A stretch of 59,006 nucleotides of DNA, taken from positions 1 through 59,006 of the forward strand of contig JAPPHD010000147.1 of NCBI GenBank assembly GCA_028821125.1. Direction: 5' to 3'. The notes beneath the pieces were generated by a model that was not told the DNA's origin, made no database searches, and saw only the letters and a program-made list of their open reading frames with translations. Position numbers and translations under genes: made by a program. The DNA comes from Gammaproteobacteria bacterium. GTDB taxonomy: Bacteria; Pseudomonadota; Gammaproteobacteria; Pseudomonadales; Azotimanducaceae. Of this stretch, positions 14,607 through 48,214 are shown piece by piece (position 1 is the first letter of the stretch; each line of letters begins with the position of its first letter).

Positions 14607-15473
14607 CTACTTTACGGCTTCAATCATCAGAATTTCAGTGCACTGCCAGTAGTAACATTCCGGAGGCGGCTTTAATCCCTTGATATTCGAGATAGACACC
14701 TTGCCGAAAAGTTCCAGTAACGCACGCTGGTGTGCTCTCGACATGCTGTTGACCTCGTTGGAGTAGTAGGTGAATACACCTCCAGGGCGTAGGTGTTCGG
14801 CGGCTGTTTCAAAGAAGTGGTGTGCATAGGTAATGCTGCCGACGTAGTGCTCGGACCACTCCCGTGCGTTCAACGGATAAGCATCGAAGAGAACACCGTC
14901 GAATAGGTCCAGACTACTGTTTACGTCCTGCCAGCGTCCCTCCAGCAGATGTATCTTCCGGCCAGGATACGCCGATCGCCATTCCTTGAATCGTTCTTGA
15001 ATATCGGCGTGGCACTCGACGATGGTGTGTGATCGTGGATTGCGTTGTTGGATCAGCGAAGCGCTGATTCCCATCCCGAATCCGATCTCAAGCACATCAC
15101 CCCGGATTCTCGTAACTGCTTCAGCCATTGCGGACATGATCGGATATTCCCATGCTTGCATGACCTGCTGCTGCCCGATTACCAGTTCCTTTTCGTCGAA
15201 CCGCTCGGATTTGTTGCGCAGATCTTCGGACATGATGCGACGCCGTTCGCTGGAGTGCATGGTCTTTCCGATCCTGTCCGCTTCTGAAATGTCGAGCAGC
15301 GTCTCCTTGAGCAGCCGACGGGTTATCCACTCACCGTAGCCCGGGTCGGGCCTAACCAGAAAGTTTGGCTCGACCTCTGCGGTCAAACGGGCTCCGGCAT
15401 CTTGTACCTGCCAGATCCGGTTCCGCTGAGTTGAATCGAGAATGTCCAGCAGCGTTTTGTCACCTTCCGTCAC
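14607..15473 (-). CDS. Guanidinoacetate-methyltransferase-like SAM methyltransferase of the azole-peptide cluster
   Basis: 288 residues from GTG 15473, which has AAGGAG 9 nt upstream. Residues about 100-285 align well to guanidinoacetate N-methyltransferase: VLEIGFGMGISAS (SAM binding), VECHADIQERFKEW, LFDAYPLNAREW and LRPGGVFTYYSNE. Two acidic residues that hold the guanidino group in that enzyme appear to be kept: E109 (in AWEYPIM) and D197 (in FDAYP). The N-terminal about 100 residues are extra and unrecognised. As the last gene of the operon, it probably tailors the peptide; because the predicted core begins with Arg39, methylation of that arginine is the natural proposal. The family match is strong; the substrate is inference. 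Confidence 0.85.
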   Translation of the reverse strand: MTEGDKTLLDILDSTQRNRIWQVQDAGARLTAEVEPNFLVRPDPGYGEWITRRLLKETLLDISEADRIGKTMHSSERRRIMSEDLRNKSERFDEKELVIGQQQVMQAWEYPIMSAMAEAVTRIRGDVLEIGFGMGISASLIQQRNPRSHTIVECHADIQERFKEWRSAYPGRKIHLLEGRWQDVNSSLDLFDGVLFDAYPLNAREWSEHYVGSITYAHHFFETAAEHLRPGGVFTYYSNEVNSMSRAHQRALLELFGKVSISNIKGLKPPPECYYWQCTEILMIEAVK

Positions 15474-15491
15474 AACTGTCCGCTCCTTGCA

Positions 15492-15944
15492 TCAGTTGGC
15501 GGAGTTACTGCCGTACGTACGCAGTTGTACTTTCAGTTCCAGACAATCCCCGGTCGAGGAAAAGGCGCTCTCCTCGAAGGTAGGCGCCCGGTTCAGTGGA
15601 CGCACGTTGTTGGTGGCGCCAACGGGTTCTACCGGCGCCCCGTAGGCATTGGTTTGTATGATTCGATCGTCGTTTACATCGTGTACCACCTTGATGGCGT
15701 AGCGGCCCGCGGGCACCTCCCTGAAGATCACCGTTCGAGGCGTCATGGCGTCGCGGATCACACTCACCTTCTGCCGCGAACAGAGCGGAGTGTTGAACTC
15801 ACGCTCAGTACATAAATATGTGTACAGCGTGCCCCTGGCTTGGGTGATACCAACGACAGCGACGCGAACATCCGCACTGGACACCGCCGGCACCGCTTGC
15901 TCGTACGGACCGAAAATGAGTGCGGCAAGCACGTAGTACGGCAC
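15492..15944 (-). CDS. DUF2141 family exported protein in the azole-peptide cluster
   Basis: 150 residues from GTG 15944 (GGAG 6 nt upstream, inside the end of the permease gene). A hydrophobic start suggests a signal peptide. The body has the DUF2141 pattern: a VRVAVVGITQARGTLYTYLC strand, then VIFREVPAGRYAIKVVHDVN, and a NAYGAPVEPVGATNN segment. DUF2141 proteins are small periplasmic beta-sandwich proteins of unknown role. Its place directly after the exporter permease suggests a role in export or self-protection, but nothing in the sequence proves it. Three cysteines (near 44, 55 and 134) could allow a disulfide. Confidence 0.75.
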   Translation of the reverse strand: MPYYVLAALIFGPYEQAVPAVSSADVRVAVVGITQARGTLYTYLCTEREFNTPLCSRQKVSVIRDAMTPRTVIFREVPAGRYAIKVVHDVNDDRIIQTNAYGAPVEPVGATNNVRPLNRAPTFEESAFSSTGDCLELKVQLRTYGSNSAN

Positions 15945-15946
15945 GC

Positions 15947-17101
15947 TTACTCCGGGATGTTCCAGCGGAAACTAGTAGCAACGATGATGATTCCAATCGC
16001 CGCCAGCGAGACGAGATAGAGTATCGTCGGCCAGCACTCCGCCAAGCCCGCAGTGCCAGTTGCAACCTGTCGCATTGAGTCTGCCAGCATGAACACCGGT
16101 GAATACCGGGCGGCCGACTCGATTGACTCGGGCATCAATGAGATGGGTATGAACAGGTCCGAAAGGAACATGATGGGAATGTTCACGAGATTGATCAGGG
16201 TATTGGCGGTGTTGATTTTTGTCACCACACCGGCTATGGCCATGCCCAAGCTGAGAAAGCTTGCCGATGAGAGTGCGACTAGAATCATGAGCAGTAGCCA
16301 GTTGCTCGGCGATATCGCATGATCAGGCCCATAGGCTCGCATGCCGAGGGAAATGTACAAGAACACGAACACCAGGAGTATCAGTAGCCGAGAGCTTGAA
16401 TAACCAAGGGTGAAGGCGATTCGACGGATGGGCATGACCTGGAACAGCTTCAGACCGCCTTCGGCACGCAGTGCGATCAGCGGACCTGTGAATCCAAAAA
16501 GAGCCGTTGATACGATCGTCAACACCGTCAGGCCGATTACATAGTAGATGCTCCGGGAGTATCCGGGTAAGGAGTCTTCACCTGATCCAATGGCATAGTG
16601 CAGTACAACGCTAGCCCCTCCCCCGGCAAGTTCCACGTTCAGATCCGCAACCACCGCTGAGATCATCGAGATCATGCTGCCGCTGCTGGCATCCGGCTCC
16701 GTTTCGAGCCGTATCGTGATGGCCTGTGGATTCTCGGGTGAAGGTGCGAATTCCTCAGGGAACTCAATTCTAACCCGGTCGCGAGGACTCGCTTCATCGG
16801 CGTCGATCAGGCGATAAGTGAACGTCACCCCGTCGACGAAAGACGCTCGCCTTTCAAGCAGTCGCGTCAGTTGTGCATGCTGGCCGTCACTGGAGACGAT
16901 ATCGGTCTCCAGGCTTGGTGACCGGGTCTCCGGGGAACCGAACAGTGCCATCATCACAACCAACAGGATGATCGGATACAGAAACGTCCAGAAAACCGCC
17001 GCTGGATCGCGCAGGTACGTTCTGGTCTCCACCCATGCGAGCGTCACGAAAGAACTGAACCATGCAGGCTGGTTGGTTGTGGCAGCTGACGTACCTGTCA
17101 T
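15947..17101 (-). CDS. ABC-2 type transporter permease
   Basis: 384 residues with the ABC-2 membrane layout: one N-terminal membrane segment (AVFWTFLYPIILLVVMMALF), a large extracytoplasmic domain (about 50-190), then five hydrophobic segments (for example YYVIGLTVLTIVSTALFGF, LLILLVFVFLYISLGM, FLSLGMAIAGVV). Its start overlaps the ATPase stop by 4 nt (ATGA), so the two are translationally coupled and form one transporter. By context it exports the mature azole peptide across the inner membrane and may also give self-immunity. A separate outer-membrane channel is not encoded here. Confidence 0.92.
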   Translation of the reverse strand: MTGTSAATTNQPAWFSSFVTLAWVETRTYLRDPAAVFWTFLYPIILLVVMMALFGSPETRSPSLETDIVSSDGQHAQLTRLLERRASFVDGVTFTYRLIDADEASPRDRVRIEFPEEFAPSPENPQAITIRLETEPDASSGSMISMISAVVADLNVELAGGGASVVLHYAIGSGEDSLPGYSRSIYYVIGLTVLTIVSTALFGFTGPLIALRAEGGLKLFQVMPIRRIAFTLGYSSSRLLILLVFVFLYISLGMRAYGPDHAISPSNWLLLMILVALSSASFLSLGMAIAGVVTKINTANTLINLVNIPIMFLSDLFIPISLMPESIESAARYSPVFMLADSMRQVATGTAGLAECWPTILYLVSLAAIGIIIVATSFRWNIPE

Positions 17102-17994
17102 GCGCCGGCCTCTTCGCGTATCAGCTTGAGGAAATCTCCCGCATTCACTGCGCGGATATGGAACTCCGACGGCCGCAGGTGTTTCATGCCGGACAAGGCA
17201 AAGCTCCGCAGAGCAGGCCCCCCGTATCCGATTACCCGGTCGCCGGCGATTTCGACCGTGGTGGCGTGCTTCTCGATTTCAGTGGCCACTGCCTGCGGCC
17301 GATCGACCACCAGCGAAACCGAGACATCGCCCAGGGTGCTGCCGAGTAGCGACCATAGTGCTCCGTTGGCCTTCACTCGACCATTCTTCAGCCATACGAC
17401 GTTGTCTGCGTTGTTGAGTTCCGCTTCGTTGTGTGTGGCAACAAGCAGAGTGGAACCGCTGGCGCGCAGTTCTTGCAGAAGGGCTGCCAGATTGCGGGCG
17501 AAGTTTGGGTCAAGCCCCGAGGTTGGTTCGTCGAGGACGGCAAGGTCAGGCCGGTGGGCGAGCGCAACGGTCAAGTCGACCCGACGCCGTTGGCCGGTTG
17601 AGAGCTTGCGATACGTCAGCTTCATCAACTCTCCCATGCCAAGTGCTTCCGCACATTCGTCGTGCCATAGTCCGTAGTGGGTTCGATGAATGCTCAGTAT
17701 TTCATTCACACGGACGCTGGGGCTCCAGGTGGTACCCTGTATCTGGGCACCGAGTGCCTGTCGACGCGATACGCGGGACCGAAACTCTGCCACTGGACAG
17801 CCAAATATCCGAACGCTTCCGGAATCGGGTTCGACCAGCCCCAGCACCGCTTCCAGGAAGGTGGATTTTCCGGAACCGTTGTGGCCGACAAATGCGTGGA
17901 CCTCTCCGGCAGGAAGCGCCAGATCGTCGACGGCGAGCAGGAACTCCCGCTGCCTGTTGATGCGTAGATCGGCTGCAATGACGGCATCTGACAT
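17098..17994 (-). CDS. ABC transporter ATP-binding protein
   Basis: 298 residues. Walker A is GHNGSGKST (residues 37-45), the signature is LSTGQRRRVDL, Walker B is LAVLDEPTSGLDP and the switch histidine lies in LLVATHNEAEL. The C-terminal about 80 residues are an extension after the nucleotide-binding domain. It overlaps the permease by 4 nt and sits 12 nt after the peptidase gene. Together with the permease it forms the export or immunity transporter of the cluster, comparable in place to the ABC genes of other azole-peptide clusters. Confidence 0.93.
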   Translation of the reverse strand: MSDAVIAADLRINRQREFLLAVDDLALPAGEVHAFVGHNGSGKSTFLEAVLGLVEPDSGSVRIFGCPVAEFRSRVSRRQALGAQIQGTTWSPSVRVNEILSIHRTHYGLWHDECAEALGMGELMKLTYRKLSTGQRRRVDLTVALAHRPDLAVLDEPTSGLDPNFARNLAALLQELRASGSTLLVATHNEAELNNADNVVWLKNGRVKANGALWSLLGSTLGDVSVSLVVDRPQAVATEIEKHATTVEIAGDRVIGYGGPALRSFALSGMKHLRPSEFHIRAVNAGDFLKLIREEAGA

Positions 17995-18006
17995 TTCAAG
18001 AACGAC

Positions 18007-19335
18007 TCATGATTGCTGCGCTATTTCACGCGCTCGGTGTCGGAATTGCTGCGCCAGATCCGGGTAGGGCAGGACGGCGGCCGCTTGGAAGAGCATGTTG
18101 GCGCAAGCACGCAAGTTGCGCCCGTATTCCATCGGTGAAGCGAGCTCGAACTTGATCGCAGCAGACAGAATGTCAGGACTGTCGGGGTGCTTACTCAGGC
18201 CTACCTCTGCGATCTGCTTGCCCCGATTGTAGCTTTCCGCTGCCGCAACGAAGTCGGTCGACATACGACTTCGCATGCCCTCGCGGCAGATGCAGAGTGC
18301 GTAGCTAATGGCCGCGTCGGGAAAGCGTTGAATGAAGGAGCTCAGCAACTGATCCAGATCGGTACTGGCCTGCTGTTCGTGAACAAAGTCATCGGACAGC
18401 AGCATGGTCATGAGAAGCATGGCATCGACCTGTTCGTTGACTTCGGAAACCTGCCGATTCTGTCGGACCTCCCGTAGCAACTCCTGCGCATTGCTCTGAT
18501 CGCCGGCGAGAAACGCCCGATGGACCCGCTGGTATAGCTTGTGCAATGAACCGTTCGATGCGCCCGGTTCGTCGTGGCCAGTGACCGTTACGTCGCTGAA
18601 TGCCGAGAGGGGACGCAAGTCTTCGATTTCAGTGCTTCTTACATGCGCGCACAGATTTTGAAAGTCCTGAATGCCTCGGCGTTCGATGATGCCATTGACG
18701 ATCAATGCGCACCGCGCGAAGATCGCGTTCGCCGTGCCTTCTCTCCAATGAAAGTCTGGATCGCCCTTCCAGCTTTTTGCCAACAGGCGATCCGTACTAG
18801 GGCCACCATCAGCCTGTTTCCGTAAACGAGCAAGCACCGCATCGCTGGCGGTCCCTACCGCGCTTTGCGCCATCAGTTCGGCGAATCCCTCGTCTAACAC
18901 ACGGTGACCTGAGAGCAGAAACGCGTGCGCTATTTCATGGATCAAGGTCTGCTCGTGGATGTTCTCTTTGGGCATTTGAATCAGTCGGATGCCGTCGATT
19001 TCAGCAATGCAGGCAGGCACGTTCCGCGGGTTCGCTGCATCAACCAAAACCAGCGGCTCAACCCCACGTAGGTAGCTGGCGATGCTCTCGTAGGCATTGT
19101 TGATTTGTTCAGGCAGGCTGGTTTGGCCGCTGTAGATCAGAAACAAATTTTTGTTTAAGCGAGAGATGGGCTGATCTGTATCCAGGCATCGTTCCAACTG
19201 GCCCAGAAGCTGCGTGCCGCTAATCACCGCTTGGAGTTCGTTGAGCGCCTCTCTGGCGCCATCAAGGTCCCGCCTTGAGAGGTGTTGAAGTGCGCGCTGA
19301 GTTTCGCCGCGCAGAATGTTCTTGAGATTCGTCAC
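18007..19335 (-). CDS. Predicted HExxH metallopeptidase with helical repeat tail
   Basis: 442 residues from GTG 19335. The segment HEIAH (H133, E134, H137) is followed 12 residues later by DEGFAELM, whose E149 is a good third zinc ligand; this is the gluzincin pattern HExxH...E. The N-terminal about 60 residues and the C-terminal half (about 255-442) are helical and look TPR-like (for example LYQRVHRAFLAGDQSNAQELLREV). No signal peptide, so it should be cytosolic. In an azole-peptide operon the obvious role is removing the leader from the modified precursor. It is not a known leader protease type that I recognise, so this is inference from motif and position. Confidence 0.7.
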   Translation of the reverse strand: MTNLKNILRGETQRALQHLSRRDLDGAREALNELQAVISGTQLLGQLERCLDTDQPISRLNKNLFLIYSGQTSLPEQINNAYESIASYLRGVEPLVLVDAANPRNVPACIAEIDGIRLIQMPKENIHEQTLIHEIAHAFLLSGHRVLDEGFAELMAQSAVGTASDAVLARLRKQADGGPSTDRLLAKSWKGDPDFHWREGTANAIFARCALIVNGIIERRGIQDFQNLCAHVRSTEIEDLRPLSAFSDVTVTGHDEPGASNGSLHKLYQRVHRAFLAGDQSNAQELLREVRQNRQVSEVNEQVDAMLLMTMLLSDDFVHEQQASTDLDQLLSSFIQRFPDAAISYALCICREGMRSRMSTDFVAAAESYNRGKQIAEVGLSKHPDSPDILSAAIKFELASPMEYGRNLRACANMLFQAAAVLPYPDLAQQFRHRAREIAQQS

Positions 19336-19365
19336 TGTTAAAGAGTCCCCATCCCAAACGGAGCT

Positions 19366-20214
19366 CTACGCGGCCGGCAGTGAGCTCTGCCTGTGACCTA
19401 CAAGCAGACACGCAGTAGCTGTTTCCGAAACACCGTCAATACCCAATAGATCGTTGACAAGCTCATCGTAGTAACCACCCCAATGCAGCGTACCCAAACC
19501 TTGTGCCGTTGCCGAAAGGTCGAGAATCAGAGGAATCATGCCGGCTTCCATCAACGCGAAACGGTAGCCACGGTAGCCGTATTTCACTACAGTTCGTTCA
19601 AGCAACGAGGTGATTAGAAAAATGGCTGATACGGTCCCCAGCACGTTCTCCCGATCGTTGAGCGCTTCTTCAATGGTGTGTTCAAAGGGCGCATTCGCGA
19701 TCACCTCCAGTTTGTGTTCCAGCGAGTTGTAGTGGGTTACGCATAGCGGTGCGCCTTCGACTCTCTGCGCCACCACATACACTTCGGATGGGCAAAGACC
19801 GCCACCTGAAGGGTAGGGCCGGAATTTGAGTTCCGCCTCTCCGATGCTGGAAACGGCTCTACGAGATGCAAAGCAGCTATGCAAAATGCCTGAAAGCTGA
19901 CTAAGCGTCAGATCTTGTGCAGCAAACTGGCGGGTAGAATGCCGCCGACTCAACAGGTCCTGAAAGTTCATGGTTTCGTCAGCGGGATGTGGGAGGTCGA
20001 TAGCCTCCAGTTCGCTATATGACTTGTAATTTGCGGCCGTCTCCAGTGCGGCGCGCTCGCTTGTAAGGTAGTCGTGAATTCGCTGCCCGTACACCCGGTC
20101 GTGAAACGGGTGGAGCTTGGTAACTTCATGCAGTTGCTCAACCTCTTCCAATTGAGTTGGAGTAAAACCTACTGGCGACAGGTAAGTAGACACTCTGGAT
20201 TTTGTCTTGAACAT
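19366..20214 (-). CDS. SagB-type FMN-dependent azoline dehydrogenase
   Basis: 282 residues of the nitroreductase-like SagB/McbC family, which oxidise azolines to aromatic azoles. Seen are LSRRHSTRQFAAQDLTLSQL (flavin phosphate binding), FRPYPSGGGLCPSEVYVV, and the C-terminal YRFALMEAGMIPLILDLSATAQGLG block. The first about 60 residues are a helical extension. It starts 5 nt after the YcaO stop, so coupling is likely. Its presence predicts that at least some rings in the product are oxazoles or thiazoles rather than azolines. Confidence 0.9.
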   Translation of the reverse strand: MFKTKSRVSTYLSPVGFTPTQLEEVEQLHEVTKLHPFHDRVYGQRIHDYLTSERAALETAANYKSYSELEAIDLPHPADETMNFQDLLSRRHSTRQFAAQDLTLSQLSGILHSCFASRRAVSSIGEAELKFRPYPSGGGLCPSEVYVVAQRVEGAPLCVTHYNSLEHKLEVIANAPFEHTIEEALNDRENVLGTVSAIFLITSLLERTVVKYGYRGYRFALMEAGMIPLILDLSATAQGLGTLHWGGYYDELVNDLLGIDGVSETATACLLVGHRQSSLPAA

Positions 20215-20219
20215 GGATT

Positions 20220-21524
20220 TCAGGGGAATGGGTGCGGACGGTCGTTGATGTATCCTCGGAACGGTTGTTTCAGCGCATCCGAAAACTCGATCAGACGACG
20301 CGTGTCCAAGTGCTGACGACCGCTTCCACAGCTCAGCGGTTGAACGTCGTTGATGAAGGTGCGCATCACCGGTACGTTGAGGTCGCGAAACTCCGTCGGC
20401 GCAATGTCGGCGGCGTAGCAGTGACGGTTTCTCGTCCTGAGATGCTCGATTAGTTGCTCCAATGGCGATCCGTCCCGATCGAACACCGCAGCTGGAACTC
20501 GCTGTTCGTTGCCTTCAAACAGGAAGGATGCTGCCTCTGAGTTTTCCGGGTGGGTGTAGTAGAGCACGTGATCGCGAAACTCCCCCAACTCCTGCCGTGA
20601 CGGCACGACGTCGCCTCTGCGCCGCATATCGAATATCCAGTTCGCAGTGTGGAAGGCCTCAACTGCAGCTTCTATTATTGCGTCGCTCAAGAAAAGTCTT
20701 GTGCTGGCACCTATCGCGAGGCCGCGCCCTTCGGCCAGGTATCCCGCTGCCAGTACGCTTGGAACTCCCAAATCTGTGGTGATATCAAAGAACCGCAGTT
20801 TCACGGGGGCACTCGCCAGCAAATGCAGCATCGTTGCCGGCAGGCGGTCTGTATGGTTAGCCAGGTTGATCTCTGGCGGCGACCGGCGCAGATTCCAGTG
20901 GACGGAAAAAGAGTCGCGCTCGATAACTTCCAGTAAGCCTGATAACAGTGCATGATCCACTGACTTTCCGGCGGCACAGCCAGTCGAGTAACCGGCGTCG
21001 TGCTGTTCATGTGGGCGGCCTTCGTAGCCAAGATACGTGAACGATGCGGGCACCAGCGCGTTGGAACCCGTGGTTAGGTTTTTCGCTGGTACCCAGCCGC
21101 TCTCAAGGCTGTCATCGTAGCGCACGAAGGAAAAGTCCGGTGCTGAATACTGGTCATCGGTAAAGAAGATCAGACGCTCTGGAGATAAACGGTCCTTGTC
21201 GGCTAGATTCCGCCCTGAAGCGATCAGCAACCCGTCAGATTCGCAGACATGTGCAGCATAGCGTTCCAAACACTCACCAATAGTTGACCAGAGTGCATCA
21301 ATCCTATTCAGTCCGGCACCCGACCCTTGCGTAACTGCTTGTCGTTCGGATCGTTCAACGCCCGGGCGGCTGAATGGATTCTGGAATTCAGCGACAAAGA
21401 TGTAGAGTTCAGCATCGGTGGTCTGCAGCGGAACTTCCACAATACTCTGGATCAGTCCGATCTCAGGGTCGTACACCCTGTCGAGCAGGGCCAGCAGGTT
21501 GGGATCCTCTAACCCGGCGGTCAT
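20220..21524 (-). CDS. YcaO-domain cyclodehydratase (azoline-forming, D protein)
   Basis: 434 residues from ATG 21524. A GTG at 21599 would extend it into the preceding gene, but similarity starts after the ATG. ATP-binding YcaO motifs are S80-xxx-E84-xx-E87-R88 (STIGECLER) and E199/E202-R203 (LLEVIERD). The C-terminus ends PHPFP, an exact match to the PxPxP end of azoline-forming YcaO enzymes. It should use ATP to cyclise Cys, Ser and Thr of the precursor. The third conserved block reads EAAVEAFH, with His where Gln is usual. It lies 16 nt after the E1-like partner and 5 nt before the dehydrogenase. Confidence 0.95.
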   Translation of the reverse strand: MTAGLEDPNLLALLDRVYDPEIGLIQSIVEVPLQTTDAELYIFVAEFQNPFSRPGVERSERQAVTQGSGAGLNRIDALWSTIGECLERYAAHVCESDGLLIASGRNLADKDRLSPERLIFFTDDQYSAPDFSFVRYDDSLESGWVPAKNLTTGSNALVPASFTYLGYEGRPHEQHDAGYSTGCAAGKSVDHALLSGLLEVIERDSFSVHWNLRRSPPEINLANHTDRLPATMLHLLASAPVKLRFFDITTDLGVPSVLAAGYLAEGRGLAIGASTRLFLSDAIIEAAVEAFHTANWIFDMRRRGDVVPSRQELGEFRDHVLYYTHPENSEAASFLFEGNEQRVPAAVFDRDGSPLEQLIEHLRTRNRHCYAADIAPTEFRDLNVPVMRTFINDVQPLSCGSGRQHLDTRRLIEFSDALKQPFRGYINDRPHPFP

Positions 21525-21540
21525 TGAACCATCGTTCGCA

Positions 21541-22446
21541 TCAGAGTATTGAGCGCACGGCGCGCATCGGTTTACTTGCAACCTTGGAACAGGCTTCACA
21601 GCGCGGGACCTTCAACACGCGTTGGGTGGACGTGTCTAGTGAAACAAAGTCAAATGAGTAAATGACTCCCGGTTCGAACAACCCGAAAGCACCTGTCACT
21701 GTACACAACACGGCGCGAGCAAGAAGGTAGTTGATCAACCCGGCGGCAACTTGACTGGGTCGTGGTTGCGTTTCCGTCGCTGCGTACGCTTGGTAGGCTG
21801 CATGCTCCGCTGGAAATGGCGTGTTTGCCTCAACGCGCGCGGTGTAGCATTGATAGCAGGCGGATTGCCTTGGCAAGACCAAGGGTCCGACGACGATCCT
21901 CGACATTTCTCGGTAGACGAAAAAGCATGGCAACCCTTGTCGCAATGCGAGTGCGTTGGTGGCGCTGAATTGCTGCGGATTCTGTCTGTCCTGGCAGTCC
22001 ACCAGAAAGGTAGCATCAGGGGCGCTGCATGCGTTCGCCACTCCCAGCATAGGCAGGCACTCGCGCAAAACACTAGCCAACCACCCTTCGCCACGGACCA
22101 GGGCTCGGGCATCCTCCAGCGACGCGAGAGGCGTCGCAAGAGCCGCTCCTTGATCGGACCAGCGCAACACATAGTCGTACACATCGAGTGCCCAATCGCT
22201 ACCGGCAGCCGGTCTGGATGTAATGGCCCTGCGGGACACTAGCAGGCGGGCGAGCTCAGTGGCGATGCGATTATTCGGGCTGTTGACAATCCCGTGCTCG
22301 CCGAATTCCTCCAGGCACCGGGCAACCGTTTCTGCGTCAGAGTCGAACGTAATATGGTTGCCGTCCGGGAACCTGAGTTGAAGGCGCTTGCCACCGTCGA
22401 ATACCGTCCAAGTCAATAGCGGGTCGAGACGTTGCACGGAATCCAC
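21541..22446 (-). CDS. E1-like cyclodehydratase partner with leader-binding (RRE) domain
   Basis: 301 residues from GTG 22446; an in-frame GTG lies 3 codons later. Residues about 1-80 (RLQLRFPDGNHITF, then a winged-helix-like stretch) fit an RRE leader-recognition domain. The rest resembles the ThiF/E1-like partner of azole-peptide cyclodehydratases. Two CxxC pairs, C197/C200 (ACYQCYTA) and C283/C286 (RCEACSK), form the expected zinc site. It should hold the precursor leader and activate the YcaO enzyme encoded next. The start has no strong ribosome site, and 72 nt separate it from the precursor stop. Confidence 0.88.
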   Translation of the reverse strand: MDSVQRLDPLLTWTVFDGGKRLQLRFPDGNHITFDSDAETVARCLEEFGEHGIVNSPNNRIATELARLLVSRRAITSRPAAGSDWALDVYDYVLRWSDQGAALATPLASLEDARALVRGEGWLASVLRECLPMLGVANACSAPDATFLVDCQDRQNPQQFSATNALALRQGLPCFFVYREMSRIVVGPLVLPRQSACYQCYTARVEANTPFPAEHAAYQAYAATETQPRPSQVAAGLINYLLARAVLCTVTGAFGLFEPGVIYSFDFVSLDTSTQRVLKVPRCEACSKVASKPMRAVRSIL

Positions 22447-22518
22447 ACTCGGTGAGCCGCTTTCGGCCTTCGTAGTCGCTGGCTGGCCAGCTATAGGCGC
22501 GCCCCTCGAGGCAAAGTG

Positions 22519-22689
22519 CTACTTCGGCAAGATGATGGTTGCTGCGCAGGTTGTGGTAGAGGTCGAACTGCAACGACCGGCTACGATTTTACCCCTCTGA
22601 ATGTTACATCGTTTGACGTCCGGGGATGGGTAGTATCGAAGTACACCGGTATGGGTGGTGCGGAGACTCGTAGACTGCATTGATTCCAT
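22519..22689 (-). CDS. Azole-peptide (LAP/TOMM) precursor peptide
   Basis: 56 residues, too short for routine ORF calling. The ATG at 22689 has AAGGAG six nt upstream. The N-terminal part (about 1-38, MESMQSTSLRTTH... to KIVAG) would be the leader. The C-terminal end RCSSTSTTTCAATIILPK would be the core: C40-S41-S42-T43-S44-T45-T46-T47-C48 are nine consecutive residues that can be cyclised, with T51 as a tenth. The Arg-Cys-rich block followed by Ile-Ile recalls plantazolicin (RCTCTTII). It is the first gene of an operon with YcaO, E1-like/RRE and SagB-type enzymes. Cleavage before R39 is proposed by analogy only. Confidence 0.88.
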   Translation of the reverse strand: MESMQSTSLRTTHTGVLRYYPSPDVKRCNIQRGKIVAGRCSSTSTTTCAATIILPK

Positions 22690-26706: not shown

Positions 26707-27645
26707 TCAGGTGTGTTCGACCTGGACGCCATGTGCAGCCATCTCCAGTTTGAGAATCGTAAATCCAAGCGCCTCTGCCGAGGCCGCGAATCGGGGCAGC
26801 GGTTCGGGGGTGTCGGCAACGGCTACGCCTACATCTCCGCCCCCTGCGCCGCACGGTTTGTAAACCAGGCCGGACGCGTTGGCCAGGCGCTCGGCGGCAA
26901 GATGAGGCGGGGAGTAGACACTTAATCCGGCGGCGTGGTCCAGCGCTTTCAGGGCGTTGGCGTAGGCGTCCAGCGCATCGCGCGACGGGTCGTTGAAGAG
27001 CTGCTCGGAGCGGTTCGCCAGCGCCTTCAGCGCTGTTCGGTCGCCATGCGCGAGGTAGTCGGCGAAGAGGTCGAGTTTGCGGCGGGTTCGGGCCGATTCG
27101 CCAACCCAGACGAAGCAGCGATAGGGCAAGGCGTCCGGAATGGATTCCGCCTTGCCGTTCTGAAAGCGCAGGCAACCGCCGAGGAAGCTGGCGGCAATAT
27201 CGATTCCGCTGCCGCGCCCTGCCTGGAGGCTCCGGTGGGCGGCCAGGGCTTGCCCGCGGTCGGGCCTGTTGCCCGCGAGCGCGGCGAACGCGGCTTGCGC
27301 GGAAACGCAGAGGGCCGCGCTGGAACCCAGTCCCAGCTTCGCCCCGCCACTGAAAAATCCGTCGGTGTTCATGTTCACCGAAACGGGGGTCGACAACGCC
27401 TCGGGAAGCTCCTGAAGCACCTGCCAGGGCAGGATGGCCGCGGCGTCGGCGGGCGTCCTGGACGGCAGGCGCGCGAATTCGATTGCCGGCGCCTCGAAAC
27501 CGCCCGTTGAGAAGCGCCATGTCCGGCTGGTCTCGAGTACACATGCGGCGAATCGGTCCACGGCCAGTACGGCTGCGGGAGCTCCCTCCAGCACCGCGTA
27601 CTCGCCCCACAGGACCACCTTGCCGGGTGCGGTGGCCGATATCAT
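26707..27645 (-). CDS. Phosphomevalonate kinase (GHMP kinase)
   Basis: 312 residues. GHMP-kinase motifs: APGKVVLWGEYAVLEGAPA near the start, the ATP-binding block LGLGSSAALCVSA near residues 104-116, and the C-terminal KPCGAGGGDVGVAVAD. The order and wording fit bacterial phosphomevalonate kinase better than mevalonate kinase. It should phosphorylate 5-phosphomevalonate. Its start overlaps the decarboxylase stop by 4 nt (ATGA), so the two are coupled. Confidence 0.85.
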   Translation of the reverse strand: MISATAPGKVVLWGEYAVLEGAPAAVLAVDRFAACVLETSRTWRFSTGGFEAPAIEFARLPSRTPADAAAILPWQVLQELPEALSTPVSVNMNTDGFFSGGAKLGLGSSAALCVSAQAAFAALAGNRPDRGQALAAHRSLQAGRGSGIDIAASFLGGCLRFQNGKAESIPDALPYRCFVWVGESARTRRKLDLFADYLAHGDRTALKALANRSEQLFNDPSRDALDAYANALKALDHAAGLSVYSPPHLAAERLANASGLVYKPCGAGGGDVGVAVADTPEPLPRFAASAEALGFTILKLEMAAHGVQVEHT

Positions 27646-28592
27646 CCGTCCACCACGACGGCGCCGCCGCCCAGCCCCACCGTCAGGATGTCCTGAACGC
27701 CCGGCTGTGCACGCAGCAGCTCTTCAACCGCCCGGGCATCGGGGGTTGTGCAGACAGCCTTGACCTGGGGACCCGCATCCACGGTGAAGAAGACGTTGCG
27801 CCCGGCCTGGCGCAGGCCGCGCAGGGCCTCGATGCAGCTCAGCGTGCCGGCGTTCCAGTAGAGCAGCGCCGGGTCGCCGCTCATCATGAGGCCGTGCATT
27901 CTGAGGCAGCTCGCTTCCGACAGTTCCGCAAGGCGCGCGAAGTCGCGGCGCAACACGGCGTCGCGCATCGAACCGAAGGCACCCGCCGTGGCGGACACCC
28001 AGGCGTCGAAGTAGGGCGAGGAACGCCGGGAGATCGCCATGCCGTCCCGGGAAGAGACGGCTTTCGGGGCCGACGAGGTGATTGCGACCACCACCTTCAA
28101 CGGCCAGGAATCCGCACTCATCAATTGCGACGCCTGCCAATCCGGCCCACAGAGCGTAGCGAACCCCCCGTGGATGGACCGGGCCGCGGATGCCGAGCCG
28201 CGCCGCGCCAGCGCAGACCGCCCGCCTGCCGACAGGCCCAGCCGGCAATGTCCGTCGATTGCCGTTGCCAGAGCCGCGAATCCGGATGCGGAGGAGGCGA
28301 GGCCCGCGGCGGTGGGGAAGTTGTTTCGGGTCTCGATGGCGAGCGGCGGAATCTCGTGGTCGCGACGCCAGTCGGCGAGCGCTACGCGGATCCCCGGATC
28401 TTCGACTGCTTCACCGTTGAGTGAAATCGAGTCGGTGCGCGCATGGCGTACGGTGGTGGTCGTGGTCAGCGTATCCAGCGTGATCGACAGTGACGGCGTT
28501 GCGGGAAGGTTTCCCGGCCTGTCCTGTTTGCCCCAGTATTTGAGGAGCGCGATGTTTGGGTGGGCCTGGGCGGTTGTTGAATGGGCGGACAT
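27642..28592 (-). CDS. mvaD: Diphosphomevalonate decarboxylase
   Basis: 316 residues. The N-terminal HPNIALLKYWGK block, SLSITLDTL, and the phosphate-binding loop NFPTAAGLASSASGFAALA are hallmarks of diphosphomevalonate decarboxylase, which makes isopentenyl diphosphate from diphosphomevalonate with ATP. The acidic/Asp block VDAGPQVKAV near the C-terminus carries the catalytic Asp. With the overlapping phosphomevalonate kinase this gives the lower mevalonate pathway, unusual beside the DXP route expected in most gammaproteobacteria. No HMG-CoA reductase or synthase gene is in the window. Confidence 0.93.
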   Translation of the reverse strand: MSAHSTTAQAHPNIALLKYWGKQDRPGNLPATPSLSITLDTLTTTTTVRHARTDSISLNGEAVEDPGIRVALADWRRDHEIPPLAIETRNNFPTAAGLASSASGFAALATAIDGHCRLGLSAGGRSALARRGSASAARSIHGGFATLCGPDWQASQLMSADSWPLKVVVAITSSAPKAVSSRDGMAISRRSSPYFDAWVSATAGAFGSMRDAVLRRDFARLAELSEASCLRMHGLMMSGDPALLYWNAGTLSCIEALRGLRQAGRNVFFTVDAGPQVKAVCTTPDARAVEELLRAQPGVQDILTVGLGGGAVVVDG

Positions 28593-43095: not shown

Positions 43096-44313
43096 ATGGC
43101 CGCACTGGACGGACTTCGGATACTGGACATGACCCAATACGAGGCGGGCACCTCCTGCACCCAGGCGCTTGCCTGGCTCGGCGCGGACGTGGTGAAGGTG
43201 GAGGCGCCCGACATCGGCGACCCGGGCCGCGGCGTGGGCCGGTATTCGACCGAGGACTACTCCGCCTACTTCTGCGCCTGGAACGCCAACAAGCGAAGCC
43301 TGGCGCTGAACCTGCGCAGCCGCAAGGGCCGCGGGATCCTGCTGGAAATGGCGCCGAAGTTCGATGTTTTCGTCGAGAACTACGGTCCCGGCGTCATCGA
43401 GCGGCTGAACATCGGCTACGACGTGCTCAAGGCGGCCAACCCGGGAATCGTCTACGTCCGCATCAAGGGTTTCGGCGCCTCCGGCCCCTGGTCCGGATAC
43501 CGCTGCATGGACATGGTGGCACAGGCGGCTGCCGGCGCCTTCTCGGTCACCGGGGAAGCGGACGGGCCGCCGATGATGCCGGGCAGCACCATCGGCGACT
43601 CCGGCACCGGCGTGCAGGCGGCCATGGCGATCCTGGCCGCGTACATCCAGAAACAGCGCACCGGCGCCGGCCAGGAGGTGGAGCTGTCGATGCAGGAGGC
43701 GGCGGCCTACTACGTCCGCACCCGCACCTACCTGGGTTCAGGCTGGGACAAGCGCCCGGCGCCGCGCACCGGCAACGCCGGCGGCGTGCCGCCGGTGAAC
43801 ATCTACCCGTGCAAACCGTTCGGCGCCAACGACTACATCTACCTGATGCCGGTGAACGAGGGCCACTGGGACGCGCTCTGCGCGGCGATCGAGCGCGGCG
43901 ACCTGCTGCTCGACCCGCGCTTTGCGGACGTGGGTTCACGCATCGAGAACGGCGACGCCCTGTACGAGGAGATCCGCAACTGGACCGGACAGCGCACCAA
44001 ATACGAGGCAATGGAGGCCATCGCCGGCGCCGGCGTCCCCTGTTCGGCCTGTCTCGACACCGTGGAAATGCATCACGACCCGCACCTCACCGAGCGCGGA
44101 TTCGTGTACGAAATGGACCTGCCCGTACACGGCAGGGTGCCCATGCTCGGGTTTGCGCCAAGGCTGTCGGAATCCACCGTGGAAATGGAGCGCGCGCCGC
44201 GGTTGGGCGAGCACACCCACGAGGTACTCGCTGCCGAACTCGAAATGAGCGAGCGGCAAATCGCCGCGCTGCAGGAACAAGGCGTCATCGGCGATCCGCT
44301 GCGCTTCACGTAG
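43096..44313 (+). CDS. Family III CoA-transferase (CaiB/BaiF)
   Basis: 405 residues from ATG 43096 (GGAGG 6 nt upstream); a start at 43045 is possible but less likely. The N-terminal LDGLRILDMTQYEAGTSCTQ, then DVVKVEAPDIGDPGRG, and the catalytic aspartate D168 in STIGDSGTGV are as expected in the family. The enzyme moves CoA between two carboxylic acids. A strong hairpin (44325-44373) follows the stop. Substrate unknown. Confidence 0.93.
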   Translation: MAALDGLRILDMTQYEAGTSCTQALAWLGADVVKVEAPDIGDPGRGVGRYSTEDYSAYFCAWNANKRSLALNLRSRKGRGILLEMAPKFDVFVENYGPGVIERLNIGYDVLKAANPGIVYVRIKGFGASGPWSGYRCMDMVAQAAAGAFSVTGEADGPPMMPGSTIGDSGTGVQAAMAILAAYIQKQRTGAGQEVELSMQEAAAYYVRTRTYLGSGWDKRPAPRTGNAGGVPPVNIYPCKPFGANDYIYLMPVNEGHWDALCAAIERGDLLLDPRFADVGSRIENGDALYEEIRNWTGQRTKYEAMEAIAGAGVPCSACLDTVEMHHDPHLTERGFVYEMDLPVHGRVPMLGFAPRLSESTVEMERAPRLGEHTHEVLAAELEMSERQIAALQEQGVIGDPLRFT

Positions 44314-44324
44314 GCGCGGCGGCC

Positions 44325-44373
44325 GCCGCCGTTCGCGCTCCGGTCGCTGCGCTCCCTGCACGCGAACGGCGGC
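44325..44373 (+). terminator. Strong GC hairpin after the CoA-transferase gene
   Basis: The arms GCCGCCGTTCGCG (44325-44337) and CGCGAACGGCGGC (44361-44373) pair perfectly over 13 bp with a 23-nt loop. No T-run follows, so it may be a terminator-like or REP-like hairpin. It marks the left side of the accessory islet. Confidence 0.55.
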
Positions 44374-44564
44374 GCTCTCCCGGAACTGGATTGACCATGA
44401 ACACCGGAAGAAAGGAACATGCAGCATCAACACGAGGGCGATGAACCAACACGAAAGCAATCCTTAACTTTGCCCTCAAACTGTCCAAACGGACCCGACC
44501 ACCTCAATCCGTTGCTGATTGGGTTTTCATGGCATTGATCGAACTGCCGACATGTGGGAATCGC

Positions 44565-45518
44565 TCAAGCTACTTTCGTAGCGTCCAGAAAGCGTTGATA
44601 CCGCTCTTCAAGGCGTTGAACCCCCGGACGTTCGCCGAGTTTTCTGGGAAGGGTGATTCGCTGTCCGTGCAAGCCCTGAATTGCATGACGGAGCGTCGGG
44701 CCGTCGGATTCTTCAAGTACGTCGGTACGCACATGGATGACGTGATCCGGTCTTACGCCGACAAAAAATCTGTCGAATGCAGCATGATGCAATCGACAAA
44801 GCGATAGTCCATTGCTGACTACCGGTTCACCTTCCGGCTCGGGGTCAGGAATGATGTGTGCGGCTTCCAACAACTCACTGTGGCGCAGGCGGCAGAAGGA
44901 GCAACGATGTCTGTATGCACGGAGAACCCGTTCGCGAAACGCAGTTTGATGAACGCGACGCCTGGTCAGGGTTGTTACATATTGGCGACGCACTTCAGCC
45001 ACCTGCAAGCCGGCCGTTTCGGGTTGTGCCCGAAACTCCAGGTTTGCGGCATCGTCAACGGCAACGGAGAACGTAAGCGCCTCGGGGAAGTCGTGAACCA
45101 CATAGACTGGCCAGATTGCGAGGTACCGGCCGGGCAGAATGCCATGGAAATACACGAGAGGCAGTTGCTTTTCCATGGCGTACCTTAGCCCGACGTTGTC
45201 CCGGTGTCCCGGGTCCGTTCCGCGGTATCGGTACCGCAGAAGCCCGCTGGGGGCGAAGGCATCGTCATAGGGACCGTTCGGCGAGCTGGTGATTGACAAC
45301 GGTGCATGCAAGAGAGCCGGTTTGAATATTCCGGATGGTCCGATGACACACACGCGTCGGCTGTCAAAGACGAAGCCCTGTTCCAGGGCAACCCGGGGCA
45401 GGACTTCTCCGTGAGTCAGGACCAGGCTGTCCAGCCATGAGAAGGCGGCTGTTCGAACCCCGACATCGACGGTGCGGTCGAAATCTGCCAACCCTGATTC
45501 AGCGGGATTTTGGACCAT
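44565..45518 (-). CDS. HNH endonuclease (putative restriction-type)
   Basis: 317 residues. The C-terminal third is an HNH domain with two zinc-knuckle-like cysteine pairs: CSFCRLRHSELLEAAHIIP and LSLCRLHHAAFDRFF, where AAHI and the later HH form the metal site. The N-terminal about 195 residues are an unrecognised domain such as is common in HNH restriction-like enzymes, possibly binding modified or specific DNA. No methylase gene is adjacent. It is more AT-rich than its neighbours and stands next to a toxin-antitoxin pair, which suggests transfer. The defence role is inference. Confidence 0.85.
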   Translation of the reverse strand: MVQNPAESGLADFDRTVDVGVRTAAFSWLDSLVLTHGEVLPRVALEQGFVFDSRRVCVIGPSGIFKPALLHAPLSITSSPNGPYDDAFAPSGLLRYRYRGTDPGHRDNVGLRYAMEKQLPLVYFHGILPGRYLAIWPVYVVHDFPEALTFSVAVDDAANLEFRAQPETAGLQVAEVRRQYVTTLTRRRVHQTAFRERVLRAYRHRCSFCRLRHSELLEAAHIIPDPEPEGEPVVSNGLSLCRLHHAAFDRFFVGVRPDHVIHVRTDVLEESDGPTLRHAIQGLHGQRITLPRKLGERPGVQRLEERYQRFLDATKVA

Positions 45519-45539
45519 GGGTACGCGACCGGCCCGTTG

Positions 45540-45803
45540 TTACTCGTAGTGAGTCCAAAGGCGTAACACTTTCACCGCATTTTCTTCCTCGAGAACCTGG
45601 TAAACCAGTCGGTGTTGAATGTTGATTCTTCGAGAGTACGCACCAGCCAGATCGCCCACCAATTTCTCATACGGAGGCGGATTCTGGTAGGGATTGGCCT
45701 GAATGACGTCCAGCAACGTTTGGGCTCGCGCCTTTAACCCCGCCCTTGCCAGCTTTTTCGCGTCCTTCCTGGCCTGCGATGTGAAGTAAAGCTCCCACAT
45801 CAC
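45540..45803 (-). CDS. yoeB: YoeB/Txe family toxin
   Basis: 87 residues. It aligns with YoeB: MWELYFTSQARKDAKKLARAGLK at the start (seen as MWELYFTSQARKDAKKL), PPPYEKLVGDLAGAYSRRIN in the middle and HRLVYQVLE, ending in THYE. YoeB is a ribosome-dependent mRNA interferase. Catalytic candidates are Glu in PYEKL, Arg in SRRIN and the C-terminal His/Tyr. It overlaps the antitoxin stop by 4 nt, so it is made from the same mRNA. Confidence 0.93.
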   Translation of the reverse strand: MMWELYFTSQARKDAKKLARAGLKARAQTLLDVIQANPYQNPPPYEKLVGDLAGAYSRRINIQHRLVYQVLEEENAVKVLRLWTHYE

Positions 45804-46042
45804 CAGTCAAGGTCGGTTTTACAGTCTTCCAGACTGGTTTCCAATCCTTGACGTATGGATTCGCGCATGCCGGGCATGGAAACCAGGTAGAGCGTTTCGT
45901 TGATCGCGTTCCAGTCCTGTTCCGCCAGGAGAACCGCGTTTCCACGCTTGCCGGTAATCACAATCGGTTTATGTGATTGCGTTGTTTCATCGATGAGGCG
46001 ATAAAGTCTGGAACGGGCATCGGTAGCATTGAGAGTGGTCAT
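45800..46042 (-). CDS. yefM: Phd/YefM family antitoxin
   Basis: 80 residues. The Phd/YefM pattern is clear: TTLNATDARSRLYRLIDETT at the start (DNA-binding dimer part), then KPIVITGKRGNAVLLAEQDWNAI and an acidic C-terminal tail that would block the toxin. It stands first in the operon and overlaps the toxin by 4 nt. A perfect palindrome just upstream (46070-46085) fits its operator. As in the family it should repress its own promoter together with the toxin. Confidence 0.93.
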   Translation of the reverse strand: MTTLNATDARSRLYRLIDETTQSHKPIVITGKRGNAVLLAEQDWNAINETLYLVSMPGMRESIRQGLETSLEDCKTDLDW

Positions 46043-46069
46043 GCAATCCTCTCCGAGAAAACCATGAAA

Positions 46070-46085
46070 GTACGTTATAACGTAC
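46070..46085 (-). promoter_or_regulatory. Probable toxin-antitoxin operator palindrome
   Basis: GTACGTTATAACGTAC is a perfect 16-bp palindrome about 27 nt upstream of the antitoxin start. YefM-type repressors bind TGTACA-like palindromes at this place; the half site GTACGTTA differs in detail, so this is a likely but untested operator. Confidence 0.6.
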
Positions 46086-46161
46086 GTTTAGTCAACAAAT
46101 CGGCACTCCAAAGTGCCGGACGCACTGCGCAAGCGGCTCAATTGCGGCGAATCGACTCGTC

Positions 46162-46266
46162 CCTATCAATCTGGACGACCTGCCCTATTGCCAAGTCATC
46201 GAATCGGAACGCGTGGAATTCAAGGTAAGCTGGAACCCGAAAACGAGGTTAACCGAACCCATCTGA
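46162..46266 (+). pseudogene. 5' fragment of an AlbA_2-domain (RecG-like) regulator gene
   Basis: In one plus-strand frame the DNA reads PINLDDLPYCQVIESERVEF, then KVSWNPKTRLTEPI and a stop. The wording ESERVEFKxSWNP is the start of AlbA_2 (Schlafen-type) DNA-binding proteins, which normally continue with a long ATP-binding part. Here there is no clear start codon and the frame ends after about 35 codons. It is probably a remnant left by a deletion or insertion next to the toxin-antitoxin pair. Confidence 0.55.
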
Positions 46267-46285
46267 GCGGAGCAGAGGCATTGAG

Positions 46286-48214
46286 ATGACCGGCATCGAC
46301 ATCGAATACGCCGTGGATTGGCGGCAACTCGAGGATCTTTTTCAGTCTGTCGAACGCCCCGGTGGATTCTGCACCCACGGCCGGGAGTTTGCTGCCATGC
46401 CAACGGTGGAAGTGGCCGGGGTCGGGATGCTCTCCTTTCCGGTTCCGGTCGCCCAGATACGGTCCCTGGTAGCAGCGGCGGAACGCGCCCCGTACGGCAA
46501 GGGCGCCGACACTCTGGTGGACACCAGCGTGCGCGACTGCTGGCAGATCGGCGCCGACAGGATTCGCCTGGGTGGCAGGGGTTGGGCGAGTACTTCCGAG
46601 CACACTCTGAACGCCGCGGCGGCCGGTCTCGGGTGTCCCGCCGACAGGCTCGATGCGCGACTCTACAAGCTGCTGCTGTACGAAACGGGCGGTTTCTTTG
46701 CCGCGCATCGCGACACCGAGAAAGCCGACGGCATGGTCGCCACCCTCTCGGTCACGCTACCGGCCGCGGGCGCCGGGGGTGAACTCGTCGTCAGGCACCG
46801 CGCCGAGGAGGCGGTAATCGACATGAATGCGACCGAGCCTTCCGAACTTGCTTACGCGGCATTTTACGCCGACTGCACACATGAAACCCGCCCGGTTCTC
46901 GACGGGTACCGGTTGTCTCTCGTGTTCAATCTCTGTCTGAAGCCGGGTGATACGGAAACTCCCCGGCAGGCGCCCGACTATTCGAGCACGGTTCAAGGAA
47001 TCGCGGAACAGCTCATCGCCTGGCGCGAGGGAGAACACGGTCCCGACAAGCTGGTCTGGATGCTCGAACACGACTACAGCCAGGCGGGCCTGTCGTTCGA
47101 TTCACTGAAAAACGCGGATGGGGCACTGGCCCGGGTTCTTGAGCGCTCGACGAACGACGCGAAATGCGAGTTTTACGCGGCGATCGTTCATGTCGAAGAG
47201 CAAGGCACGGCGCGCTACGCGGACGGAGAGTATTTCGATGGCTGGGGTTGGCGCGGCGACGATGCCGACGACCTTGAATTCGACGAGATTCTCGATGGGC
47301 GCTATTGGCTCGACGGATGGGTCGGTTCCGATGGCGAGGAGGCGCCCTTCGGGAAGATTGCACTGAATCCGGGCGAAGCCCTGCCCGCGGGGGCCCTCGA
47401 CCACGCCGAACCGGACGAGCAATGGGTGAACGAGGCAACTGGAAACGAGGGTGTTACCCTGGAACGGGCTTATCGCCACGCAGCATTCGTCATCTGGCCG
47501 CGTTGCCGAACACTGGATCTTCTCGCCGACGAGAGCATCGACGCAGCCATCGCCTGGGCTCAACGGCAGATTGCGGCAGATCCGGCCCTGGCAGACGGCC
47601 TGATCGAACGGCTCATCGAGTTCTGGCCGCCAACTTCCCCGCGCCGTGAAGACAAGAGCAGAACCGCAATGTTGCGCCTGCTCGAACAGGCAGGCGACGC
47701 CATGCTTGCGATGCGCTTTCTGCGAGAGATCGTCGCACGACTCTACGATGGCAGCGAAAGCGAGGCCTTGCATTCCTTGCTGGAGTTCGTGGGGCCTGCC
47801 GATGCCGCTCCCTTTCTGGCCGATCTCGCCGGCAATCGATTCGAATTTCGGCCCCGCGAAACGCTGCAGTTGCTGCTGCACGCCGGGGATCTGAACGGAT
47901 TCGATTGGCGCCAGACACTCGCGGATAGCGCCCGTGCCGTGCTGGCCGCCCTGCCGACTGCGCTACGATCGGTTCGGGGCGGGAACATTGTGAGCTGGCC
48001 GCCCGCGGATTCGCGCGGGAAAATGAATGCCGGGGCGCTGCGAGACCTTTTCCTGCTGGCTTGGCGTTGCGGCCTGACGGACGCAGCGCAACGCGCGGCA
48101 GAGACTGTCGCGGAGTATCCCGCGGCCATTGAGCCGGAACGGACGGTTCCGCAGGCATTGGCAGGGCTGCGCCGGGAGCAGGGTTTGTCGACCGGCGGCG
48201 CCTACGCCAACTGA
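46286..48214 (+). CDS. 2-oxoglutarate/Fe(II)-dependent oxygenase with long C-terminal region
   Basis: 642 residues. The N-terminal about 220 residues look like a prolyl-4-hydroxylase-type 2OG oxygenase: H141 and D143 in AAHRDTEK, H199 in CTHETRP and R209 in GYRLSLVFNL. These are the iron and 2-oxoglutarate ligands. The remaining about 420 residues are helical and acidic with no recognised domain (for example ALAWAQRQIAADPALADGLIERL-type stretches). No signal peptide. It follows the remnant at 46162 and may be part of the same accessory region. The substrate is unknown. Confidence 0.82.
   Translation: MTGIDIEYAVDWRQLEDLFQSVERPGGFCTHGREFAAMPTVEVAGVGMLSFPVPVAQIRSLVAAAERAPYGKGADTLVDTSVRDCWQIGADRIRLGGRGWASTSEHTLNAAAAGLGCPADRLDARLYKLLLYETGGFFAAHRDTEKADGMVATLSVTLPAAGAGGELVVRHRAEEAVIDMNATEPSELAYAAFYADCTHETRPVLDGYRLSLVFNLCLKPGDTETPRQAPDYSSTVQGIAEQLIAWREGEHGPDKLVWMLEHDYSQAGLSFDSLKNADGALARVLERSTNDAKCEFYAAIVHVEEQGTARYADGEYFDGWGWRGDDADDLEFDEILDGRYWLDGWVGSDGEEAPFGKIALNPGEALPAGALDHAEPDEQWVNEATGNEGVTLERAYRHAAFVIWPRCRTLDLLADESIDAAIAWAQRQIAADPALADGLIERLIEFWPPTSPRREDKSRTAMLRLLEQAGDAMLAMRFLREIVARLYDGSESEALHSLLEFVGPADAAPFLADLAGNRFEFRPRETLQLLLHAGDLNGFDWRQTLADSARAVLAALPTALRSVRGGNIVSWPPADSRGKMNAGALRDLFLLAWRCGLTDAAQRAAETVAEYPAAIEPERTVPQALAGLRREQGLSTGGAYAN

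Follow-up and report, generated by a model that had tools for sequence, protein, structure and literature searches.

Helicobactins are predicted linear azol(in)e peptide (LAP) gene clusters of Helicobacter pylori, named in a passage of Cox et al. 2015 (PMC4603692). LAPs are also known as thiazole/oxazole-modified microcins (TOMMs), and in the open-licence literature we found helicobactin as a TOMM family in that paper only, as predicted clusters. According to other passages of the same paper, plantazolicin has five ring-forming residues, two nonpolar residues, and then five to six more ring-forming residues; dimethylation of its N-terminal arginine is reported to be required for activity; and its methyltransferase appears to need an N-terminal arginine followed by a thiazole (PMC4603692). 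Methylation of small molecules is also relevant: BlsL of blasticidin S biosynthesis is GAMT-like (PMC5572114), and SznE of streptozotocin biosynthesis is an arginine methyltransferase according to a passage of the saskemycin preprint (PMC12637814). Here we describe a LAP operon with a GAMT-type methyltransferase from a gammaproteobacterium of the family Azotimanducaceae (assembly GCA_028821125.1, contig JAPPHD010000147.1). By "the window" we mean the whole stretch of 59,006 nucleotides that was analysed.

We favor, with moderate confidence, the reading that this LAP operon is akin to the helicobactins and arrived by horizontal transfer, and that it makes an azole peptide with an N-terminal arginine whose guanidine group is methylated by the GAMT-type enzyme. 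The proposal is based on the genes, their families and their order, on kinship by tree and by precursor, on base composition, and on the guanidine-site residues.

Genes of the operon

As stated by the original prediction, which was made from the sequence of the window alone, positions 14607-22689 of the minus strand hold a complete LAP operon of nine genes:

22519..22689, minus strand: precursor peptide, 56 amino acids (AAGGAG 5' of the ATG; AGRCSSTS match to H. pylori; leader motif YYPSPD)
21541..22446, minus strand: E1-like leader-binding protein and cyclodehydratase partner (C protein), 301 amino acids (TIGR03882; two CxxC pairs)
20220..21599 (the start may be 21524), minus strand: YcaO cyclodehydratase (D protein), SagD type (TIGR03604, PF02624)
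19366..20214, minus strand: SagB-type flavin mononucleotide (FMN) azoline dehydrogenase (B protein; TIGR03605)
18007..19335, minus strand: putative HExxH leader peptidase, 442 amino acids (HEIAH...DEG)
17098..17994, minus strand: ABC exporter ATPase (PF00005, E = 3.4e-25)
15947..17101, minus strand: ABC-2 exporter permease (PF12698, E = 3.9e-26)
15492..15944, minus strand: DUF2141 protein (PF09912, E = 2.5e-19)
14607..15473, minus strand: GAMT-type S-adenosylmethionine (SAM) methyltransferase, predicted to be the guanidine N-methyltransferase of the core arginine (GAMT homology)

The three enzymes of ring formation each match a curated family above its cut-off. The E1-like partner, which may hold the RRE domain named in the prediction, scores 54.3 bits (cut-off 36.9) against TIGR03882 ("TOMM precursor leader peptide-binding protein"), has no Pfam match, and carries the two predicted CxxC pairs, which read CYQC and CEAC. 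The YcaO protein ends in PHPFP and matches TIGR03604 (SagD) at 237.6 bits (cut-off 219.25) and PF02624 (E = 1.7e-52); it is of SagD type and does not belong to a non-azoline group. The dehydrogenase matches TIGR03605 (SagB) at 113.3 bits (cut-off 78.4). With its listed GTG start at 21599, the YcaO gene overlaps the E1 gene by 59 nucleotides; an in-frame ATG at 21524 gives a gap of 16 nucleotides and may be the start instead.

The ABC exporter pair, whose genes share 4 nucleotides (17098-17101), and the DUF2141 protein were also correctly predicted, as their Pfam matches show. By the look of its N-terminus, the DUF2141 protein is probably exported, and our guess is that it has an immunity role. 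The putative peptidase has the predicted HExxH motif (HEIAH, followed by DEG) and matches no Pfam or NCBIfam family above the cut-off. In blastp comparisons with small sets of open frames, it matched the genes at the same position of two related clusters, which are described below: L033 (E = 1.2e-6) and the H. pylori plasmid p1HPAKL117 (E = 2.5e-4). The HExxH motif and the following DE can be aligned by eye between the operon's peptidase and these relatives.

The precursor peptide

The precursor gene starts with an ATG at 22689, with AAGGAG 6 bases upstream. The leader contains YYPSPD and runs to ...KIVAG, which is followed by the core RCSSTSTTTCAATIILPK. The core is rich in Cys, Ser, and Thr, and Arg39 is its only arginine. 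We infer that the leader is cleaved before Arg39, after Gly38, in which case the core would begin with RCSS.

The octapeptide AGRCSSTS is identical in the window and H. pylori precursors; when the window precursor was shuffled, 0 of 3000 trials reached an 8-residue match. The leader motif YYxSxD also aligns between them: the junctions read ...YYPSPD...KIVAGRCSSTSTTTCAATIILPK in the window and ...YYHSND...VVSAGRCSSTSSSCCCCCGSGGK in H. pylori Aklavik117. The precursor on plasmid pAsmB of Aeromonas salmonicida reads ...YYVSGD...AVTAGRCCSTSSSCCCGG, and that of L033 reads ...AVSVGRCSCSSHVASCCCKALN. Because the 4-residue matches of the window precursor to these two were reached by shuffled sequences as well (122 of 3000 shuffles for L033 and 151 of 3000 for A. 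salmonicida), we base their kinship on the leader motif, on the genes nearby, and on where the shared stretch lies. The stretch shared with the plantazolicin-type precursor of L109 (introduced below) is not beyond shuffles either (1616 of 3000). In other LAP precursors from genomes drawn from the same class, arginine is not at the core start (...AGGCSTC... in L086 and ...PGAGCSL... in L088). Plasmid searches with the precursor and the peptidase gave no match and thus missed even the H. pylori genes that were present, so these searches are too weak for such a distance.

The methyltransferase

The original prediction called the last gene a SAM methyltransferase of a different family from that of plantazolicin. 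The family does differ; more exactly, the protein is a homologue of GAMT, the guanidinoacetate N-methyltransferase of creatine synthesis. Its Pfam matches are all below threshold, yet the homology to GAMT is clear in both sequence and fold, and it predicts modification of the side-chain guanidine, not of the alpha-amine. Glu45 and Asp134 of the guanidine site of GAMT align with E109 and D197 of the window enzyme, and 8 of the 11 enzymes in the alignment, counting that of the window, have this pair. Gln and His replace it in the other three (L044, from Anaerolineae, and L121 and L122, from the same class as the window), all of which lie between nonribosomal peptide synthetase (NRPS) genes, as judged by eye from open frames. 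This coordinated change suggests a different substrate. Two of the enzymes that keep Glu and Asp are encoded in blasticidin-type plasmid clusters, together with blsE, blsF, and genes for arginine 2,3-aminomutase or 2-ketoarginine methyltransferase; one of these two was compared with GAMT and matched it (E = 8.8e-7). From the kept pair and the comparison with the blasticidin-type clusters, we predict that the only core arginine is methylated on its guanidine group, probably at N-delta.

The predicted core start of Arg and then Cys is like that of plantazolicin, whose enzyme, in the passage cited above, appears to need an N-terminal Arg-thiazole (PMC4603692). The window enzyme might thus have been recruited from another family to methylate the alpha-amine of the N-terminal arginine. 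We consider this unlikely. The search with the window methyltransferase returned no chain of BamL or BpumL at E <= 0.1, whereas the methyltransferase of L109, our positive control, matched BpumL at E = 9.5e-10 and BamL at 8.1e-8 to 8.5e-8. Furthermore, the window enzyme keeps both guanidine-site acids, for which a methylase of the alpha-amine would presumably have no use. BamL and BpumL are also not among the best 50 rows of a structural alignment of the window methyltransferase, which proves nothing.

Another idea is that the methyltransferase confers self-immunity by modifying an arginine of a host protein, such as a ribosomal protein, instead of the peptide. Protein arginine can be a substrate of GAMT-like enzymes, as in the case of Rmt2 of yeast. 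Also, some LAPs, such as phazolicin, hit the ribosome. Nevertheless, the methyltransferase gene stands at the end of a biosynthetic operon and several of its relatives are in small-molecule or NRPS clusters, so we view self-immunity as quite unlikely.

A scan of genome contigs for two strict 8-residue patterns, which can miss distant copies, found six GAMT-type loci (L043-L048); no gene like the E1, YcaO, SagB, or peptidase of the window was matched in their flanks, some of which are short (L048 is 6.4 kb in all, and L045 has 3.7 kb on one side). In L048, the methyltransferase match falls in two separate frames, and the alignments do not include it. Among 340 genomes drawn from the class, 4 had a match to the methyltransferase (including the window's own), and around the other three there was no LAP gene match, with one stretch ending at a contig end. 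Among 398 genomes drawn from the phylum, there were 5 matches: the window's own genome, two loci from Magnetococcales, and two weak matches (E = 4e-5 and 2.8e-4). Three plasmid records had a match, of which the two that we examined are blasticidin-type; the third is from Embleya. In a library of defence genes, the window methyltransferase matches mad2 (E = 6e-8). As an observation on the two Magnetococcales loci (L041 and L042), their GAMT-type genes have the Glu/Asp pair and border a conserved block with genes that look radical-SAM-like and adenylation-like by eye.

Probable kinship with the helicobactins

The best full-cluster relatives of the operon are L033, from genome G072, and clusters on H. 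pylori plasmids. From the description in Cox et al. 2015, we identify the latter as helicobactins. On p1HPAKL117 and on the SouthAfrica7 plasmid, the order is precursor, E1, YcaO, SagB, a hypothetical protein (with HExxH), ABC ATPase, and permease, as in the window (for p1HPAKL117, the permease is known from an open frame). L033 departs from this order, as its permease is placed before the precursor. Because the gene order and a homologous precursor recur on the H. pylori plasmids, and because the G+C content deviates (see below), we think that the operon is more than a chance arrangement.

In a tree of joined E1, YcaO, and SagB proteins from 12 clusters, the window groups with L033 and the two H. 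pylori clusters (support 100/99), and this clade remains when the Alkalihalophilus row is removed (100/98). Single genes were analysed with 11 rows, and SagB alone recovers the same clade (99/97). The operon is thus probably an outlying relative of the predicted helicobactin family, on the combined grounds of tree and precursor.

The original prediction described the pathway as plantazolicin-like. Comparing the gene set and the precursor with other LAP clusters bears out the LAP pathway and the look of the core, with its predicted Arg-Cys start; it does not bear out kinship with plantazolicin, as the joined enzymes group with helicobactins. Our plantazolicin-type reference is a single cluster, L109, from a plasmid of Corynebacterium tuberculostearicum, and it has a long branch. 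We think that it is a fair reference because its methyltransferase matches the structures of BpumL and BamL and its core starts with Arg-Cys. A grouping of the window with L109 is rejected by the joined tree (p-AU, the p value of the approximately unbiased test, of 3.7e-8, or 0.000948 without the Alkalihalophilus row), by YcaO (0.0031), and by SagB (0.000113); E1 alone does not reject it (0.0973). A wider group of L109 and the four members of the helicobactin clade is weakly rejected by the joined tree (p-AU = 0.0294). If the operon were simply of plantazolicin type and resided in a Gram-negative host, this would account for the Arg-Cys start, the core rich in Cys, Ser, and Thr, the ABC exporter, and the presence of a methyltransferase. 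However, given the trees, the different methyltransferase family, and a core without the plantazolicin layout that is described in part of Cox et al. 2015 (PMC4603692), this explanation is very unlikely. The prediction that both the protease and the methyltransferase differ in family from those of plantazolicin holds: the methyltransferase was compared with BamL and BpumL, and for the protease no known family was found. The product is probably new, as predicted.

Several of the related clusters have features of their own. Next to L033 (G072, contig 4, 2077000-2094000) are a second YcaO gene, a TfuA-like gene (by look), and an E1/rhodanese-like gene, which together form a thioamidation-type module and suggest a product with both azoles and a thioamide. 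Plasmid p1HPAKL117 (L124; 18.8 kb) also carries a DUF4135 gene, which is lanthipeptide-synthetase-like, and an ABC gene, so it may encode two peptide pathways. Of 16 plasmid records that match the E1 protein, 12 are from A. salmonicida (L106 and 11 others). On the A. salmonicida plasmid that we examined, there are a gene for a TOMM leader-binding protein and an AGRC precursor, and copies of IS5 break up the YcaO region. Lastly, L034 (from a genus with two Magnetococcales records) and L113 (a Rhizobium leguminosarum plasmid) share a LAP cluster that has a methyltransferase or methyltransferase-like gene, a small HExxH gene, and three YcaO genes that differ from one another; in the tree, each YcaO copy of one pairs with its counterpart in the other.

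Origin and distribution

The operon was apparently acquired horizontally; its base composition and distribution fit with this, without proving it. The G+C content is 0.564 in the operon and 0.647 in the rest of the window, and the difference is also seen in a 1-kb profile. The E1 gene was found in 1 of 58 relatives that were searched, which is the window's own genome, and a YcaO search of that genome found the operon's gene only. Of 398 genomes drawn from the phylum, 21 have a YcaO match; with a three-row profile (E <= 1e-20), so do 7 of 369 drawn from the class. Both counts include the window's own genome. In viral scans, a single YcaO query gave 0 matches and an alignment query gave 27 remote YcaO loci. 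The flanking genes are common within the genus: the upstream crotonase-like gene has matches in 7 of 9 genomes and the downstream acyl-CoA-ligase-like gene in 9 of 9 (own genome included; both names are by look). We found no clean empty site: in the 6 other genomes of the genus that have both flanking genes, the best matches to the two are on separate contigs and in some cases close to where a contig ends.

A promoter scan found 1 weak site where 3.6 were expected, and so gives no evidence of a promoter. That the operon is decayed or silent is the least likely of the alternatives: it would suit an E1 gene in just 1 of 58 relatives and two related plasmid clusters that are broken by insertion sequences, but all nine frames are open with their motifs intact, and the precursor has a good ribosome-binding site.

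Elsewhere in the window, a second dip in G+C content (0.57-0.61, at 44000-47000) covers a gene for an HNH endonuclease with a match to a restriction-type profile. At 26707-28592, a GHMP-kinase gene adjoins a diphosphomevalonate decarboxylase gene; these are mevalonate pathway genes, which are uncommon in Pseudomonadota.

Proposed pathway

We propose that the E1-like protein binds the leader, probably by the YYxSxD region, and brings the core RCSSTSTTTCAATIILPK to YcaO, which would convert Cys, Ser, and Thr residues to azolines. SagB would oxidise some of these to azoles. The HExxH peptidase would then cut the leader, presumably before Arg39; the GAMT-type methyltransferase would methylate the guanidine of Arg39, probably at N-delta; and the ABC pair would export the product, which is probably an antibacterial peptide. 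The order of the steps is part of the proposal. The more specific proposal, an N-terminal-Arg azole peptide that is N-delta-methylated on its guanidine by a GAMT/BlsL-type enzyme, in a helicobactin-like family that occurs in both Campylobacterota and Pseudomonadota with a shared Gly-Arg-Cys core start, has in our view slightly less than an even chance of being correct.

Several results weigh against these proposals. As to kinship, neither E1 alone nor YcaO alone recovers the helicobactin clade, and neither rejects it (p-AU = 0.202 and 0.463); a YcaO-only tree with 20 rows does not settle the branching around the window; and the window enzymes are just 22-30% identical to those of H. pylori. 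As to the methyltransferase, none is annotated on p1HPAKL117, none was seen in the examined stretch of the SouthAfrica7 plasmid, and L033 has no match. Because these related clusters show no methyltransferase, the methyltransferase and the core arginine do not go together. The nearest relatives of the enzyme by path length are L043 of Pseudofrankia and then the three NRPS-embedded copies with Gln and His; none of these is known to lie in a LAP cluster. Except at residues 111-200, the structure model of the enzyme is weak (mean pLDDT of 70, and below 50 for residues 72-97). The methyltransferase may act on another arginine, for instance in the leader or in a protein.

Comparison with known systems

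The LAP class, the helicobactin family, and the guanidine methylation of free or small-molecule arginine were known already; what is new is a GAMT-type enzyme in a LAP operon. In the titles and abstract openings of the open-licence papers that our searches listed, we found no report of guanidine methylation as a step in making a ribosomal peptide. If our reading is correct, this would be a new tailoring reaction for peptides and a usable biocatalyst for arginine side chains. It would also provide a testable product for the helicobactin family, and clusters from H. pylori, Aeromonas, and other bacteria would be joined by one precursor signature.

Compared with GAMT, the window enzyme has about 95 residues before the aligned part, and its predicted substrate is a peptide. 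The substrate of BlsL is a small molecule (leucyl-demethylblasticidin S), not a ribosomal peptide (PMC5572114). The two methyltransferases from bls-type clusters share the Glu/Asp pair of the window enzyme, although the likeness to BlsL itself is by description only.

The helicobactins are like the window in their gene order from the precursor to the ABC pair, in AGRCSSTS and YYxSxD, and in a related HExxH gene (annotated as hypothetical in H. pylori). Unlike them, the window has a core that is poor in Cys and ends in IILPK, and it adds a GAMT-type methyltransferase and a DUF2141 protein, neither of which has an annotated counterpart on p1HPAKL117. The plantazolicin-type L109 has LAP enzymes, an ABC exporter, a methyltransferase, and an Arg-Cys core start, as the window does with its predicted core. 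In contrast to the window, its methyltransferase is from another family, its enzymes are not the nearest kin, and no HExxH gene is annotated in its stretch. In the window, a predicted Arg-Cys core start like that of plantazolicin is found with another lineage of enzymes, which has a creatine-type guanidine methylase instead.

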